From a virus: DNA of 23,029 bases. The notes below the pieces were generated by a model. It was not told where the DNA came from, made no database searches, and worked only from the letters and a program-made list of their open reading frames with translations. Where the stretch lies: IMG/VR virus record IMGVR_UViG_3300030450_002022, positions 1-23,029 of that record, one strand, 5' to 3'. Every line of letters begins with the position of its first letter. The stretch's first letter is position 1. The translations under genes and the position numbers were made by a program. Shown here piece after piece: positions 2,437 to 23,029 of the stretch.

Positions 2437-3279
2437 TTAAATAATATCAGGGTCTAAAGTTTCCGATAGAACCCTTGTTGTGTCAGCTATCAAAGTATCT
2501 GCTTCTTGAGGTTCTTCTATTTCTGCGTCTAGTTCGTCAATTTCCATTTCAACATTTGATTCATCAGAACCAAATCCGATTATCATATCCAATTCGTTAT
2601 AAACTTCTTGGATTCTGTCTTGTAAATTAACCAAAGATTCAGTAGCACCCTTTGATAACTTTTTCTTTTTTTCAAGCCGTAAAGAAGTAAGTTCTTTAGC
2701 CCTGTCGATAAAACTGTTAATTGTGTTAAGCACATTATCAGCTTCATCAGTAAACCTTAAATTAGATTTAGGCTCACTTTGCACTTCAGCAGAGGAATTA
2801 TCTTCCTTAACTGCTAAAGTATGCGTTTCTTGATTAGCACCGACTAATACGGGACTAACTTCGAAAACTGTTGCGGACTTGATGTATCTCACTTCTTGTG
2901 ATTGTCCGTCCTTTTGAAATTCTCCATTTTCTGATTCAGTAACTTGATATCCAAAACTCCATTGTTGTAAATCTCCCATAGCTTTAACTGTATGGAAAGC
3001 GTCTCTTCCTCTTTCGGTGTCCATAATGAACTGACCTTTGAATACAGCTTTTTCTTCGTCTTGAACTATTTCGCCTCTACCGATTACATCTTTCCAATCG
3101 TGAGACCAAACCATAGGGACGCCTTTATCTCCCCAAGCTGATTTTATTGAATTAGGAAGAACAACATCTTCATCTGAATCGACGGTATTAAATACAGAGA
3201 AAACTGCTTCTACTTTTCCCTCTATGTCGTCTGATACTTGTAAATCTAAAGTCTTAAAAGTCATATTTTCTTTTTTCAT
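2437..3279 (-). CDS. Prohead maturation protease, HK97 (S78) family
   Basis: A 280-residue serine protease that cleaves capsid delta domains during head maturation. The N-terminal 160 residues match the S78 family: VFNTVDSDEDVVLPNSI, then the catalytic His in PMVWSHDW (H60), GRGEI, a GQFIMDTERGRDAF stretch, and the catalytic Ser in LQQWSFGY (S108), followed by FEVSPVLVGAN. The remaining C-terminal part is helical and acidic and may serve as an internal scaffold extension. The start at 3279 overlaps the upstream stop (ATGA) and follows GAGGAGCAAGA. It sits just ahead of the capsid gene, the standard arrangement. Confidence 0.9.
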   Translation of the reverse strand: MKKENMTFKTLDLQVSDDIEGKVEAVFSVFNTVDSDEDVVLPNSIKSAWGDKGVPMVWSHDWKDVIGRGEIVQDEEKAVFKGQFIMDTERGRDAFHTVKAMGDLQQWSFGYQVTESENGEFQKDGQSQEVRYIKSATVFEVSPVLVGANQETHTLAVKEDNSSAEVQSEPKSNLRFTDEADNVLNTINSFIDRAKELTSLRLEKKKKLSKGATESLVNLQDRIQEVYNELDMIIGFGSDESNVEMEIDELDAEIEEPQEADTLIADTTRVLSETLDPDII

Positions 3280-3518
3280 TCTTGCTCCTCATAAGCTTCA
3301 TTCTTTTCTGTTGCTGGGTCGTCGGCAATGAAATGTCCTTTAGCGTTTCTAGCTCTTTTCTTTTGAAGAGCTTCTGCTTCTTCTAATCCTTTTACTTCTT
3401 CAATTAGACCTTGTTTTTTTAGCCACTTAACAGACTTCGCAGGAATCTCATCAATGATGTCTCCCTCTTCATACTGCTTGTCGCCAAACATTAATCCAAC
3501 TTTTAATATATAACTCAA
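3276..3518 (-). CDS. Small head/tail-associated protein, TTG start
   Basis: An 80-residue protein starting at a TTG (3518) that overlaps the upstream stop as TTGA and has AGAGG eight bases upstream. An ATG at 3494 is the alternative. Visible parts are a short beta/helical domain (VGLMFGDKQYEEGDIIDEIP, KSVKWLKKQGLIEE) and a C-terminal tail RNAKGHFIADDPATEKNEAY of a kind common in small phage proteins near head genes. The exact role is unknown; position between the tail-completion-like gene and the protease suggests a virion-assembly function. Confidence 0.65.
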   Translation of the reverse strand: MSYILKVGLMFGDKQYEEGDIIDEIPAKSVKWLKKQGLIEEVKGLEEAEALQKKRARNAKGHFIADDPATEKNEAYEEQE

Positions 3519-3922
3519 GTTATTACCTCTATCTCAAATTCTACGCCTAAGTATTCAATACTGTTTATAGTATAAACACCATAATTGCTTGCTTCAACAA
3601 CTCTAGCAGAAGATACTGCACCACCAAGTGTTGTATCGCCCTCAATCGCAAATTTAATTGAGCTTGCACCTGAGCCAGCAAGATATCCGTCTAAAGTATC
3701 TTGTGAATCTTCAGCGTCCACTCTTGAAACATAAAGTTGAATTGGAATTGTGTAAGTATCTGAACCTCGACTAAAAGTATTATCGTATTCCAATGAAGAT
3801 AAAGTACCTACGATTGCACAAGGTGGTTCAATCGAATCAGGCACATAATCATATACTAATAAAGAACTTATCGTTTCAAGTCTAGTTCCTAAACCTGAAC
3901 GAATACTTGTAAGACTAGCCAT
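3515..3922 (-). CDS. Tail-completion / tail-terminator-like protein
   Basis: A 135-residue protein with the pattern of siphophage tail-completion (head-tail joining or tail-terminator) proteins. The N-terminal helix (SLTSIRSGLGTRLETI) is followed by a VYDYVPDSIEPPCAIVG strand pair, then RGSDTYTIPIQLYVSR and a final beta hairpin ending EYLGVEFEIEVIT. Finding it before the protease and capsid genes, and not after the adaptor, is unusual. It begins 20 nt after a strong hairpin terminator (3938-3963), so it needs read-through or a promoter I could not identify. The family call is by sequence feel and could not be searched. Confidence 0.6.
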   Translation of the reverse strand: MASLTSIRSGLGTRLETISSLLVYDYVPDSIEPPCAIVGTLSSLEYDNTFSRGSDTYTIPIQLYVSRVDAEDSQDTLDGYLAGSGASSIKFAIEGDTTLGGAVSSARVVEASNYGVYTINSIEYLGVEFEIEVIT

Positions 3923-7427: not shown

Positions 7428-7659
7428 TATCATTTTCCCAATCGAATGGTTCGTCGCTTTTTTGACCGATTCTATTCTCTAGTTTATAAATAGCTTCTTT
7501 CAATTCATTTTGAATTGCTTGTTCTATTTGTGGAATATATCTATCAGGGTATTCATACAAACTTTGGTTTGATAGATTACCAAGTAGGCGAATCTGCTTT
7601 AAAGCTTTATTGACTCTTGATACTGCAAGCCTTTTAAACTTTTCTTCTTTACTTTCCAT
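7417..7659 (-). CDS. Small helical protein, first of accessory block
   Basis: An 80-residue charged helical protein starting MESKEEKFKR at an ATG behind AAAAGGAGAAATA. The ATG at 7683 falls at the likely transcription start. Coiled-coil-like segments (KALKQIRLLGNLSNQ, QNELKEAIYKLENR) suggest a protein-protein interaction role. It follows the promoter at 7686-7713. Confidence 0.55.
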   Translation of the reverse strand: MESKEEKFKRLAVSRVNKALKQIRLLGNLSNQSLYEYPDRYIPQIEQAIQNELKEAIYKLENRIGQKSDEPFDWENDNEI

Positions 7660-7685
7660 TATTTCTCCTTTTGTCATAATCATAT

Positions 7686-17356: not shown

Positions 17357-17616
17357 TCTTCTTCTCCTCTTAATCCACCATATAATATTTCGACTTCCTC
17401 TTCAAAAGTCTCGCTAGCTAAAGAATCTACCGTAGGATAGAGTTTCTTCTTAGCTTTAATTAATGCCCTATTAGTTGCAACTAAACATTCTTCTTTAGTT
17501 AAAGAGTTATAACCAAACTCTTCTGAAGCCATTGCCCAGTTAAACATTTTTCTACGGATTTCATTCCTTAATAATTCGTTTTGAAAATTATTTTGGAACA
17601 TATCTTTATGCGTCAT
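17353..17616 (-). CDS. Small unknown protein
   Basis: An 87-residue acidic helical protein starting MTHKDMFQNNFQN; an ATG at 17622 would add two residues. It contains LTKEECLVATNRALIKAKKKLY and an acidic end GLRGEEE. It overlaps the upstream gene by about 11 bp and the next by 4. No family is recognised. Confidence 0.55.
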   Translation of the reverse strand: MTHKDMFQNNFQNELLRNEIRRKMFNWAMASEEFGYNSLTKEECLVATNRALIKAKKKLYPTVDSLASETFEEEVEILYGGLRGEEE

Positions 17617-17836
17617 AATCATCTATTGTAATAGAAGATTTAAAGTCTGCAACAGTTTTATTATATTCTTTCCATTCCTTTTCCATTTTCATATCTAAAA
17701 AGAAATCAGAAAAAACTTCTTTAATAACTACTACATAAAAGAAACGCCAAAAGATTATATTGCCTATTACAACAAGCAAATCAATTGAGTTCCATAAGTC
17801 GTCGCCTGATACATCAAGCATATTTAAGTCAATCAT
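17606..17836 (-). CDS. Small membrane protein downstream of the ncRNA
   Basis: A 76-residue protein with a strong AAAGGAG ribosome site. Residues 18-40 are hydrophobic (IDLLVVIGNIIFWRFFYVVVIK), a single membrane span, followed by a charged cytosol-type tail (MKMEKEWKEYNK). It is the first gene after the ORF-free region and begins only 23 bp after the 10-bp hairpin at the RNA's 3' side, so it may be cotranscribed. Confidence 0.6.
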   Translation of the reverse strand: MIDLNMLDVSGDDLWNSIDLLVVIGNIIFWRFFYVVVIKEVFSDFFLDMKMEKEWKEYNKTVADFKSSITIDDYDA

Positions 17837-17858
17837 ATATTCTCCTTTATTTATATTG

Positions 17859-17882
17859 TTAAGTTCTTTGTTAAGAACTTAA
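17859..17882 (-). terminator. 10-bp hairpin at 3' side of the ncRNA
   Basis: TTAAGTTCTT (17859-17868) and AAGAACTTAA (17873-17882) form a perfect 10-bp stem with a 4-nt loop. The following minus-strand bases are AT-rich but not a clean U-tract, so it may be a weak terminator, a processing site or the last helix of the RNA. Confidence 0.55.
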
Positions 17883-19150
17883 AGCAACTCGGACTTATGA
17901 GCTGTTAACTAGGCGCTTTACACCCACTCATAACACTTGCCACCTTTGGTTATCCTAATAATTGCTATGCTTGGTTTAACGCAATTAAAACTGTCCTGTT
18001 CGCACTTTGAATGCTATCAACATATATTCCTGCCTTTATTCCACTTTGTTGGGTATCAGTTTATATACTCCACATTAATCTCTACTTAGGCTTTTGCACT
18101 TTATTATCCGAGTTCCTTTAAATTCTTAATTAACTAAACCCTTACGGATATGAGCGTTTATGTTTGCTACTTACCTCTCGTCCCATTGTAAGTCAGTAAG
18201 TAGTTCATACTGTTTATAACCAGTATATGTTTTATAGCAAACCTTGTTCCAATCCAACTTAGTTATTCTCAAACTTAGTTTTCAACTGATAGTTCTTTCA
18301 TAAGTCATTACATAACCTATCAAAGAACTAACAGCAGGGCTTTTAATTTACCAAACAACTACTCATATCCATAAGGATTTAGTTTATGAGTGTATTAAGA
18401 AACTATCGTTATGTATAATCTTACAGCTTGTCGTTACTCTGTCCTCTTATACAATCATATAACTATAACTTCTAATTTCTTGCCAACTTCCGTTCAAGGA
18501 AATGGGTTAAACTCGTTAGCCGATTTCTGCTAATTATCATTTACTTTAAAAGGCGTTCTTTTACTTCATACTCTTACTAATCCTCTCGGATACCTTATCT
18601 AACAATAATTTAAGGCGGGTGGTTTGCACACTGTACATTTACTGAAGTAGTTCCTATATGGCCACTTTCAATGGTGGTCTGTCCTGAATTTCGACGCTAT
18701 TACCCGCTCAAGCTCCTCACACTCTATTAATAAATTAATAAAGACTTATTCCACTCTTAGCAACTTTCCTAGAGTTCATACTCTTAGTAACAGTTAATGG
18801 ATATCTCCTAAGCTCTCTCTTGAGCATTTAACTGCTAAATGTTGATAGTTTCCTAATACACTCATTCCAAAGGTTTAGTTAAAGATAACTCGTTTATCTT
18901 AAGTAAAAGAATCTCCATACAATTGTAATCCGTTCCCACTTACTTAAGGTTACTACGCAGTTTTGACACAACCGAATTGTCGTCATTGTTACTTAATTCC
19001 CTCATACATCGCCTAAACGAGAAGCTAAAATTAAGCCCTTACTAATTTTACTTAGTTACCTTTAGTTAAACCTTTGGTTTTGGGTTTTCCTTGCCCCCCG
19101 TTTTATAGTGTGGCTCTCACTTGGAAGTCTAAATTTTGAGAGACTGACTC
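17859..19150 (-). ncRNA. Giant structured non-coding RNA (candidate)
   Basis: No ORF of 60 codons or more occurs on either strand between 17837 and 19279. The segment is dense in long-range complementarity. Helix A: 18132-18154 with 18362-18384, 23 bp; its only two non-Watson-Crick pairs are C-A on the plus strand, that is G-U on the minus strand. Within A: GTTTGCTA (18162-18169) with TAGCAAAC (18235-18242), CTTAC (18170-18174) with GTAAG (18196-18200), ATACTG (18207-18212) with CAGTAT (18221-18226), and TAGTTCTTT (18290-18298) with AAAGAACTA (18322-18330). Loop bases 18309-18316 match 18408-18415 (8 bp) as a pseudoknot. Helix B: 18556-18566 with 18901-18911, 11 bp. Others: 17895-17901 with 17927-17933, 17959-17965 with 17981-17987, 18615-18620 with 18702-18707, 18769-18775 with 18780-18787, and 19026-19033 with 19043-19050. 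Ends are approximate. The strand is inferred from the G-U pairs and gene direction. The style matches GOLLD/ROOL-type phage RNAs; class unproven. Confidence 0.7.
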
Positions 19151-19168
19151 TTAATCTCTATACCTATA

Positions 19169-19246
19169 ACATTACAATCTTTGATTATTAATTCAATCTT
19201 TTATTATGCCTAATTTAAAATAAGCTTGCATTCAATCTAAGATTAT
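19169..19246 (-). promoter_or_regulatory. Three tandem operators and putative promoter of the ncRNA
   Basis: Copies of the palindrome lie at 19174-19188 (ACAATCTTTGATTAT), 19193-19207 (TCAATCTTTTATTAT) and 19232-19246 (TCAATCTAAGATTAT). On the minus strand TTGAAT (19191-19196) is 16 bp from TAATGT (19169-19174), a weak -35/-10 pair with the first operator in the spacer. This is the only multi-copy operator cluster in the window. Confidence 0.55.
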
Positions 19247-19263
19247 GCTAGGGAACCATAACC

Positions 19264-19277
19264 TCAATGTTTATAGG
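19264..19277. repeat. 14-bp intergenic repeat TCAATGTTTATAGG, copy 3
   Basis: Identical to 231-244. It lies two bases after the stop of the phosphoesterase gene and 18 bp before the first operator of the ncRNA cluster. A short GCCT/AGGT pairing around it could act as a weak terminator. Confidence 0.6.
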
Positions 19278-19279
19278 CT

Positions 19280-20515
19280 TTAAAGTATCTTTAAGTCGTC
19301 CCAACCCTGCTCATTTACAGTCAAAGTTAATACACCTTGTTTAGTTTTTAATCCAGTCCTTGCAAAAAGTTCCTCTGAGTCGTCAACACTTGGACATTGT
19401 AACCACAATCTCATATCATCTTTTCCTGCTCCTTGTTCAACAGCTCGGAAGTGATGATAATGACCCGATATTAAAATCGAGCAGTCCGCCAAAGGACTCT
19501 TACCATACATCTGACCTTTCCAAAAGGTTTCCATTTTCTTCCAAGAATCTCCACCGCCGAAACCTGCAAGGTGTCCGTGAGTAAAACCCACCAAACGATT
19601 AGAAATCTTTAAAGTTAAATGATATCCGTCAGGTACAAGGACTTTAACTTTATCATACATTTTATTTTGCTCAAGGATTTCTCCTATCACTTGTAGTTGT
19701 GCTTGGCCTGAGTCATCTAATCTAGTTGTTGCAACACTAGCCTTAGCACTTCTATTCTCTGAGTGATTGGAAACTACACCTGATAAAACAATTTCATTTC
19801 CATAAGGAAGAAATGTATCAATAATTTTTATAATCATTCTTCGCATTAAGTGTTCTTGTTGAGACCTATCCAAGTCAATTACATAAGCTTGATTAGGATA
19901 GAAATGACAAGTTCCCTCAACTAAATCCCCAAGAGAAATTAAATAGATAGTATCAATCTTCTTTCCAGTCTTTTTAAAGTTCTCTAATTGTTGAACTCCT
20001 TTTTCTAAAGCTTCATTAATTCTTGCAACAGTTGCAACAGAACCTTTTTTACCTTTATACTTGAAATCTTTTTTACCCAATTGGAAGTCGCTCATACAAA
20101 ATACCCACGAAGTATCTGCTTTAACTTTCCTTTGTTTCTTTATTGGAGTTTTCTTTTTAATCTCTTTAAGAAGTTCATCATAATATTTATCGTGATGAGG
20201 ATTCTTTTTTCGGATTTGAAATTTAAAAGCATAGAGGTCAACTATTTCTCCACCTTTTCTTTGAGTCTGCCAAGTACTAAACCTAATTGTATCTTCCATT
20301 ATTTCAAATACCTTTGGGTCAAACCCATTATCTGAAAGTAAATAATTAAATTTAGGATTCTCTTCTTTAGAGATTGCTGTAATCTCTCCTCTGTTATCTT
20401 TATTAACCCAAGTCGCATTAGGTTTCCAACCACTTGGATAGTAGTTATTCCCTAGTTCCTCGTCGTGAGCAACATCTTTGCGCTTCTTTATTATCTTTTC
20501 TATTTCTTTGTCCAC
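19280..20515 (-). CDS. Calcineurin-like metallophosphoesterase
   Basis: A 411-residue protein with all metal-binding motifs of the calcineurin-like/Mre11 superfamily: MSDFQLGKKD (D143, Q145), LGDLVEG (G196, D197), SNHSENR (N250, H251), THGHLAG (H313, H315) and SGHYHHF (H352, H354). The D-x-Q variant is common in phage members. The N-terminal 135 residues are an extra domain (WKPNATWVNKDNRGEITAIS) also seen in phage homologues. A phosphodiesterase or DNA-processing role is likely; the substrate is unknown. The start is GTG (20515) with AGGG upstream. It is the last gene before the ncRNA. Confidence 0.88.
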   Translation of the reverse strand: MDKEIEKIIKKRKDVAHDEELGNNYYPSGWKPNATWVNKDNRGEITAISKEENPKFNYLLSDNGFDPKVFEIMEDTIRFSTWQTQRKGGEIVDLYAFKFQIRKKNPHHDKYYDELLKEIKKKTPIKKQRKVKADTSWVFCMSDFQLGKKDFKYKGKKGSVATVARINEALEKGVQQLENFKKTGKKIDTIYLISLGDLVEGTCHFYPNQAYVIDLDRSQQEHLMRRMIIKIIDTFLPYGNEIVLSGVVSNHSENRSAKASVATTRLDDSGQAQLQVIGEILEQNKMYDKVKVLVPDGYHLTLKISNRLVGFTHGHLAGFGGGDSWKKMETFWKGQMYGKSPLADCSILISGHYHHFRAVEQGAGKDDMRLWLQCPSVDDSEELFARTGLKTKQGVLTLTVNEQGWDDLKIL

Positions 20516-21885: not shown

Positions 21886-22070
21886 TATCCTTTCCTGAAA
21901 CTAATTGTAAGTAACCAAATTGTTAAAGTTATAAGCGTAGCCATTGCTGTAATAGTTTGGGCTTGTCCAGTAAGTGTAAGTGTTGCAATAATTAAACCAA
22001 CCAAAGTCCAACTAAGGTTAAGTGTTTCTTTTATTGCTTGAACAAACCAAGACCACAATTTATTTATCAA
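21885..22070 (-). CDS. Holin-like two-span membrane protein
   Basis: A 61-residue protein with two hydrophobic helices (LSWTLVGLIIATLTLT and TAMATLITLTIWLLTIS) joined by a short turn, and a basic C-terminus (FRKG). This is class II holin style. It starts at TTG (22070), six bases after GGAG, overlapping the upstream stop as TTGA. Pairing with the XhlA-like gene supports a lysis role. Confidence 0.7.
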   Translation of the reverse strand: MINKLWSWFVQAIKETLNLSWTLVGLIIATLTLTGQAQTITAMATLITLTIWLLTISFRKG

Positions 22071-23029
22071 TCAAATCTCCTTAATGCAAACGATACAATC
22101 CTTACCAATATGGTTGGCACAATTACTTCCTGTGCCTTATCCTTTTGGTCTTGAGTCATATCATCTGAGATATTACTTAATTCTATTGCGCCTAAATCTA
22201 CATCTATAATAACACTTATAGGCGACTCAATGAAAGACTCAAAAGCAATTTCTGTGGTTGCGTCGGCAAGAGTGTAAGGTTGAGAAGATTTATCAGCATT
22301 TTCTACTGCTCTTTCAACAAACTCATCAACAGCTTGAGCAACATTCTCATCAGTCTTAATTGCTTCAGCAATAATCTGAACATCTTCTGCTCCTGTTTCT
22401 TCTTCGAATCCTAATACTTCAGCTACTGCTTCAGCTTGTTCTTGTGTTATCTCTTCTTCTTGGGCTATTTGAATAACCTCTTCAACCACTTCAGCAATGA
22501 TTTGAATTGCTTCTTCGCTTACTTCACTAAGATTTTCAACCCCAATGTCATTAACTTCTTCAATTATTTCAATAACCTCTTCGGTTTCAAGCTCTTGTAC
22601 AAACTCTTCGATAGCTTCTTCTTTGGCTTCCTCATATTCAACTAACTCCTCTTCAGTAAACTCTTCTAATTCTTCTTCCGTAACTTCAGGAATATCAATA
22701 ACAATAATCTCTTCTATTACTTCTTCTAACTCTGCAACTTCTTCCTCAACCATCTCCTCAGAAAGAACTTCTTCATCATCTTGTTCTGTAAAGATTTCAA
22801 ATATTTCAAAAACTTCTTCATCTTCCTCTTCTATAATCTCCTCAATAATCTCGACCTCTTCTTTAGATATAGATTCTTCTTCTATTAATTCATCTTGTAT
22901 AGATTCTAAATCTTTTAATACATCTTCAGGGTCAGGTGGAAATAAATCATTCGCAATAAATATATCTATTAGGTTTATATCTTCTTCAATAATAATTATT
23001 TCTGTTTCAAATACTTCTATATCATCTAT
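22067..23029 (-). CDS. Very acidic, Glu-rich protein (cut by right edge)
   Basis: The frame has no stop between 22067 and the right end of the window, so at least 320 residues are encoded and the true start lies outside. The ATG at 22753 is internal. Most of the visible protein is Glu/Ile/Val-rich with runs such as VEEEVAELEEVIEEI and EELEEFTEEELVEYEE, likely helical. The last 85 residues are more normal: SSQPYTLADATTEIAFESF, then SPISVIIDVDLGAIEL and RIVSFALRRFD. Position just before the holin is that of tail-fibre or late structural genes. It could be a virion protein or a DNA-mimic-like acidic protein; I recognise no family. Confidence 0.7.
   Translation of the reverse strand: MDDIEVFETEIIIIEEDINLIDIFIANDLFPPDPEDVLKDLESIQDELIEEESISKEEVEIIEEIIEEEDEEVFEIFEIFTEQDDEEVLSEEMVEEEVAELEEVIEEIIVIDIPEVTEEELEEFTEEELVEYEEAKEEAIEEFVQELETEEVIEIIEEVNDIGVENLSEVSEEAIQIIAEVVEEVIQIAQEEEITQEQAEAVAEVLGFEEETGAEDVQIIAEAIKTDENVAQAVDEFVERAVENADKSSQPYTLADATTEIAFESFIESPISVIIDVDLGAIELSNISDDMTQDQKDKAQEVIVPTILVRIVSFALRRFD

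Follow-up and report, generated by a model that had tools for sequence, protein, structure and literature searches.

A modular structured RNA gene of phages built from exchangeable, stem-closed domains

The window analysed here is a 23,029-nucleotide stretch of viral DNA (IMG/VR record IMGVR_UViG_3300030450_002022, positions 1 to 23,029), in which an interval of 1.4 kb lies between a gene for an Mre11-like exonuclease, upstream, and a 76-aa gene, downstream, both on the minus strand (Table 1). The preliminary description had noted that this interval has no credible ORF in otherwise tightly packed surroundings, and both points hold: the neighbouring genes are tightly packed and on the minus strand, the longest ORF on that strand (the coding strand) within 17837-19279 has 33 aa, with none of at least 50 aa, and the sole ORF of 50 aa is on the plus strand and TTG-started. 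A credible RNA extends on the minus strand between about 19160 and about 17871, preceded by a putative regulatory leader and followed by a tail that runs into the following gene's ribosome-binding site, in which no clear terminator was found before that gene. The RNA gene thus located measures ~1.25 kb (1.2-1.4 kb); its relatives range from one 0.16-kb cassette up to ~1.4 kb, with most copies at 0.75-1.4 kb. Elsewhere in the window (22067-22753, minus strand) is a gene for an extremely acidic 228-aa protein that matched no PHROGs or Pfam family.

Table 1. Features of the RNA locus in the window. RNA positions (r) equal 19280 minus the window coordinate.
Feature	Window position	RNA position	Strand	Remarks
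Exonuclease gene	19280-20515		minus	Mre11/SbcD-like, PHROG 284, 411 aa; upstream neighbour, outside the RNA
ORF-free interval	17837-19279		minus	flanked by the exonuclease and 76-aa genes
Leader, putatively regulatory	19168-19279	r1-112	minus	two AATC(N3)GATT palindromes, 19234-19244 and 19176-19186
GTTATAGGTATAGAGATT, putative -10 region and RNA start	19153-19170	r110-127	minus	conserved among copies of the window's clade
Head, H-type pseudoknot	19125-19159	r121-155	minus	S1 AGAGAT/GTCTCT, S2 GAGTC/GACTT, third loop A-rich
Motif AAGTGAGAGCCACACTATAAAACGGGGGGCAAGG / AAGTGAGAGCCACACTATAAA after the pseudoknot	19081-19122		minus	conserved; in the heads of most copies
Domain A, A1 type	18867-19077	r203-413	minus	closing stem 18867-18890 / 19054-19077
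Domain B	18386-18865	r415-894	minus	closing stem 18386-18407 / 18844-18865, 22 bp
Domain C	18132-18384	r896-1148	minus	closing stem ~24 bp; junction frame and two exchangeable sub-domains
Conserved hairpin of domain C	18206-18227		minus	loop hexamer TTATAA at 18214-18219
Domain D	17871-18129	r1151-1409	minus	closing stem 17871-17893 / 18107-18129
Tail	17837-17870		minus	leads to the ribosome-binding site (AATAAAGGAGAATATATG) of the following gene

The RNA folds into four abutting domains, A to D (~210, ~480, 253 and 259 nt), all with closing stems of 22-24 bp, adjacent ones being separated by only 1-2 nt. Five inverted repeats of 22-26 nt occur in the interval, with arms 160-440 nt apart in four of them. 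The three best window stems score 20.0, 21.5 and 22.5 with an ungapped scorer, compared to a best of 16.0 in 500 dinucleotide shuffles, just three of which had any stem scoring at least 16. Fold energy lies 10.1 sd below shuffles for the minus strand and 6.9 sd for its complement, against 1.5 sd for an equal-length control over a neighbouring gene; domains B, C and D folded singly have z scores of -5.0, -8.9 and -4.5, respectively. Among 54 distinct stems, collected with symmetric scoring so that G.T and A.C were treated alike, mismatches are G.U in 100 cases and A.C in 10 (about 1.3 to 1 is our estimate from base composition alone), and hence we assign the RNA to the minus strand, which is also the better-folding of the two strands in all 20 copies. 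Two long-range helices had been singled out in the preliminary description. The 23-nt helix is real and closes domain D, its arms being 91% complementary. The 11-bp helix (18556-18566 / 18901-18911) is unsupported and probably a chance pairing, since it would join two domains and is not conserved, L010 having lost one arm and kept the other.

Upstream of the first domain, the 18-nt element GTTATAGGTATAGAGATT is likely the -10 region and start of the RNA. The AATC(N3)GATT palindrome of the leader recurs upstream of several genes of the same phage (182-192, 4448-4458, 7713-7723 and 14747-14757), and it resembles an operator or promoter element used throughout the phage. The head, tested by direct pattern, has an identical pseudoknot topology in four unrelated sequence versions, namely those of the window and of contigs L131 (stems AGTTAC/GTAACT with TACTC/GAGTA), L008 and L110, with complementarity scores of 10-11, whereas shuffled heads reach at least 10 in 1.25% of cases. 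The head of L121 differs from this shared pseudoknot.

Relatives were collected via the exonuclease (five close viral contigs), via the neighbouring 174-aa gene (80 loci) and, further, with DNA patterns from the leader, the domain C stem and the head. Arrays of the same kind are present in about 22 viral contigs besides the window, and a single cassette in L045; on scanning both strands of the loci collected up to then, abutting long stems were restricted to members of this RNA family. Two sets of matches were discarded as chance: an 18-mer of the leader inside an ORF in L011, and genome matches with the head motif (L141-L143) that fall inside ORFs and have no stem array. Isolate phages contained no sequence related to three arrays, with short chance-level matches only, and the domain C stem was absent from the 84,980 bacterial and archaeal species genomes searched.

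The arrays obey a conserved domain order, A1, A2/F, B/G, C, E and D/H, from which each phage has its own selection: A1-B-C-D in the window, A2-B-E-D in L010, C-E in L009, F-G-C in L008, A1-A2-C-D in L048, A1-A2-G-C-E in L059, A2-C-E-H in L101, two C domains in L104 and three C-type stems in L106. These compositions come from folds together with an automatic stem map, which overlooks some stems visible in the folds. Even where the flanks of two phages are 92-98% identical, domains may be gained, lost or repeated, or have their contents removed and replaced. Thus, L010 and the window share 97-99% identity in the flanks and in domains B and D but differ in sequence at the A and C positions, with an A2-type domain in L010 taking the place of window domain A. 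In domain C the closing stem and junction frame are constant and the two inner sub-domains are swapped wholesale. One cassette stretch is 95.5% identical between L008 and L059, though their exonucleases share only 37%. In L126 a stem is hybrid, its outer and inner halves being of different types, with complementarity retained. Hybrid closing stems with an A2-type outer and a C-type inner half occur in both the L106 and L126 arrays and are apparently recombination products that retained complementarity; the L106 array also holds a mispaired set of stems. Altogether, we hold it almost certain that this is a real RNA gene and a modular one.

Units that are tandem, bounded by inverted repeats, gained and lost, and in one case (L045) single recall integron gene cassettes or MITEs, and the arrays could be read as inverted-repeat mobile cassettes of that sort or as hairpins acting in replication or recombination, that is, as elements working at the DNA level. 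The excess of G.U over A.C in the stems is not expected for DNA, and this strand-specific bias largely refutes such a reading. Moreover, the structure of one RNA strand is selected, with compensatory structure inside the units, the repeats differ by unit type, and domain order is conserved. Of the hallmarks of integrons and MITEs, neither terminal repeats or an attC core common to the cassette types nor a recombinase was found: stems differ between types, and no integrase or transposase gene was recognised among the proteins scanned. We consider a DNA-level element very improbable.

Compensatory changes were found in every domain tested, as judged against shuffles and slid registers that ignore kinship among the sequences. 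They are most extensive in domain D, with double changes in 11 of 59 pairs (20 cells, where shuffles give 6.9 and slid registers give none), followed by nine compensatory pairs in domain E and six in the A2/F domains. The closing stem and hairpin of domain C provide weaker evidence, with two compensatory pairs alone because this core hardly varies; the pair count there is not unusual relative to shuffles (61 of 500), but the cells and the score are. Across the 480 nt of domain B, the window and L010 differ at three positions, all of which keep pairs and two of which constitute one compensatory exchange. AT-rich DNA does yield short inverted repeats, so that a decayed gene might in principle mimic an array by chance, but the shuffles, the covariation and the homologues reject this explanation, to which we assign a negligible probability: none of the homologous arrays examined is a protein gene, nor was a homologous protein gene found at the site. 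The locus hence shows the traits of a large structured phage non-coding RNA, with no coding capacity, conserved structure and compensatory changes, and the earlier reading of it as a giant phage non-coding RNA is borne out on these same grounds.

The window and most copies directly precede a small gene in the same direction, with no clear terminator in between, and the RNA could therefore be a very long, structured 5' leader belonging to the operon that follows it, controlling the small downstream genes in cis through attenuation, RNA stability or RNase III processing. Its distribution among close relatives argues otherwise. With exonuclease genes 94.6-95.7% identical, L053 is without the gene and L060, L059, L048 and L040 carry the whole array, the insertion beginning right at the exonuclease stop codon and ending before TAAAAGATTGCAT; about half of the exonuclease-bearing phages lack an array after the exonuclease (for example, L028-L039, L047, L056 and L091-L099). 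In L110/L116 the array (~950 nt in L110) has an opposite-strand gene on either side and no same-strand gene downstream, and a 19-pair terminator with a T run directly follows it on the RNA strand. Besides, the first downstream gene varies by phage, and genes related to one another occur after the site whether or not an array is present. The clean insertion and the L110/L116 arrangement point to an accessory gene with its own transcription rather than a mere leader, and we find the cis-regulatory alternative improbable.

No Rfam model, including those of GOLLD, ROOL and OLE, matched the window or eight related loci at gathering score, and a scan of 17600-19500 at E up to 10 returned weak unrelated matches only, without GOLLD or ROOL; the best, RAGATH-7 inside domain C (E 0.039, 21.8 bits versus a cut-off of 111.8), was rejected. 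The preliminary description had entertained a new class or a divergent member; our main finding, which it could not see, is that the RNA is modular, is exchanged between phages and comes and goes as a unit. Rfam does not include the family, and the open-access literature yielded no account of this RNA, which would join the small group of giant phage RNAs as a new member. To our knowledge, giant structured RNA families described in phages are very few, and neither GOLLD nor ROOL has a known function. GOLLD and ROOL are phage or prophage RNAs that form a 14-mer and an octamer nanocage, respectively (0.66 kb in the solved case of ROOL), and OLE is a large ornate RNA that dimerizes with symmetric kissing loops (PMC12286853). 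These three are the nearest in kind to the RNA described here, which we do not file under any of them because it lacks a match to their Rfam models. Like GOLLD, it is a giant, ornate, phage-encoded RNA with a conserved and a variable part, but it is a chain of domains whose closing stems of 20-30 bp are gained and lost. GOLLD is often near phage or prophage tRNA genes, a weak criterion for assignment, and the present RNA shares the phage location with no tRNA gene nearby or elsewhere in the window. With ROOL it has in common a large size, a pseudoknot, an origin in phages and no coding capacity, and it differs in its modular domains, in the greater length of most copies and in not belonging to a tRNA island. 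It is large and ornate like OLE, but is a phage gene, whereas that of OLE is bacterial.

As to what the gene does, its product probably functions as a modular structured RNA, acting as RNA. In the mechanism that we propose, the product of an autonomous phage accessory gene would be a large structured non-coding RNA, transcribed from the minus strand at a phage-regulated promoter just upstream of the 5' pseudoknot and organised as an ordered chain of long-stem-closed domains. It would be active as a folded RNA and not as mRNA or antisense; an antisense role against its own genome was discarded, as the array there matched nothing but its own stems. Alone or with proteins, the RNA may assemble into a particle with several arms, in which the pseudoknot head, the abutting stems and contacts between loops would hold the structure together and the exchangeable inner sub-domains would be turned towards a host partner that varies.

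A self-assembling scaffold comparable to GOLLD and ROOL is a tentative form of this mechanism, reached by analogy and favoured because the loop of domain C switches between palindromes as in OLE and GOLLD, where palindromic intermolecular kissing loops switch with self-complementarity kept (PMC12286853). Among 24 copies of the domain C hairpin the loop is TTATAA in 11, TTCGAA in 12 and a longer loop in one, with no intermediates; both hexamers are self-complementary, and the switch is seen on near-identical backgrounds (L123 versus the third C of L106). As evidence for a scaffold this two-state switch is suggestive only, a self-complementary alternative being expected by chance in about one in three double changes, and the loop also fits a T-loop. 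Still more speculative, and in our view unlikely, is a combinatorial self-assembling particle, in which ordered, interchangeable stem-closed RNA domains would recombine as cassettes between phages; if true, it would be the first known RNA with arms shuffled like phage tail fibres, in phages of uncultured hosts.

The main rival is a decoy or inhibitor RNA whose arms mimic host targets or titrate them away (defence nucleases, RNA-binding proteins, or binders of tRNA-like or T-loop structures), the swapping of inner sub-domains then reflecting an arms race against varying hosts. Conserved closing stems around interiors replaced wholesale, the occurrence of single-cassette and multi-cassette forms, the accessory presence or absence of the gene and a T-loop-like hairpin in domain D (GCA-UUCGAAG-UGC) are all consistent with a decoy. 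Yet the RNA has no match to a known RNA or tRNA, and a fixed domain order with a pseudoknot head is more suggestive of a single assembled molecule than of separate decoys. We regard this rival too as unlikely. Several natural experiments make the role and evolution of giant phage RNAs directly testable: phages that are nearly identical but either carry or lack the gene, copies ranging from one domain to five or more, interiors swapped within stems that stay fixed, and one copy that forms a transcription unit of its own.

Other genes were observed around the RNA gene or in its place. In L110 (236-3142, minus strand) it adjoins FolE-, QueE-, QueD-, QueC- and QueF-like genes, named by eye, a set that probably encodes a 7-deazaguanine DNA-modification or queuosine pathway. 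In L009 a gene for a 304-aa Mom-like DNA-modification protein (2797-3711, minus strand; Pfam Mom, E 6e-34) separates the exonuclease gene from the RNA leader, and the intergenic site therefore also receives protein genes. Phages without the RNA (L042, at 7498-7676, L053, L057 and L049) have small alternative ORFs at the same site, for example one for a 33-aa CxxC protein in L042. Judged by its gene content, this intergenic site is an accessory-gene hotspot.
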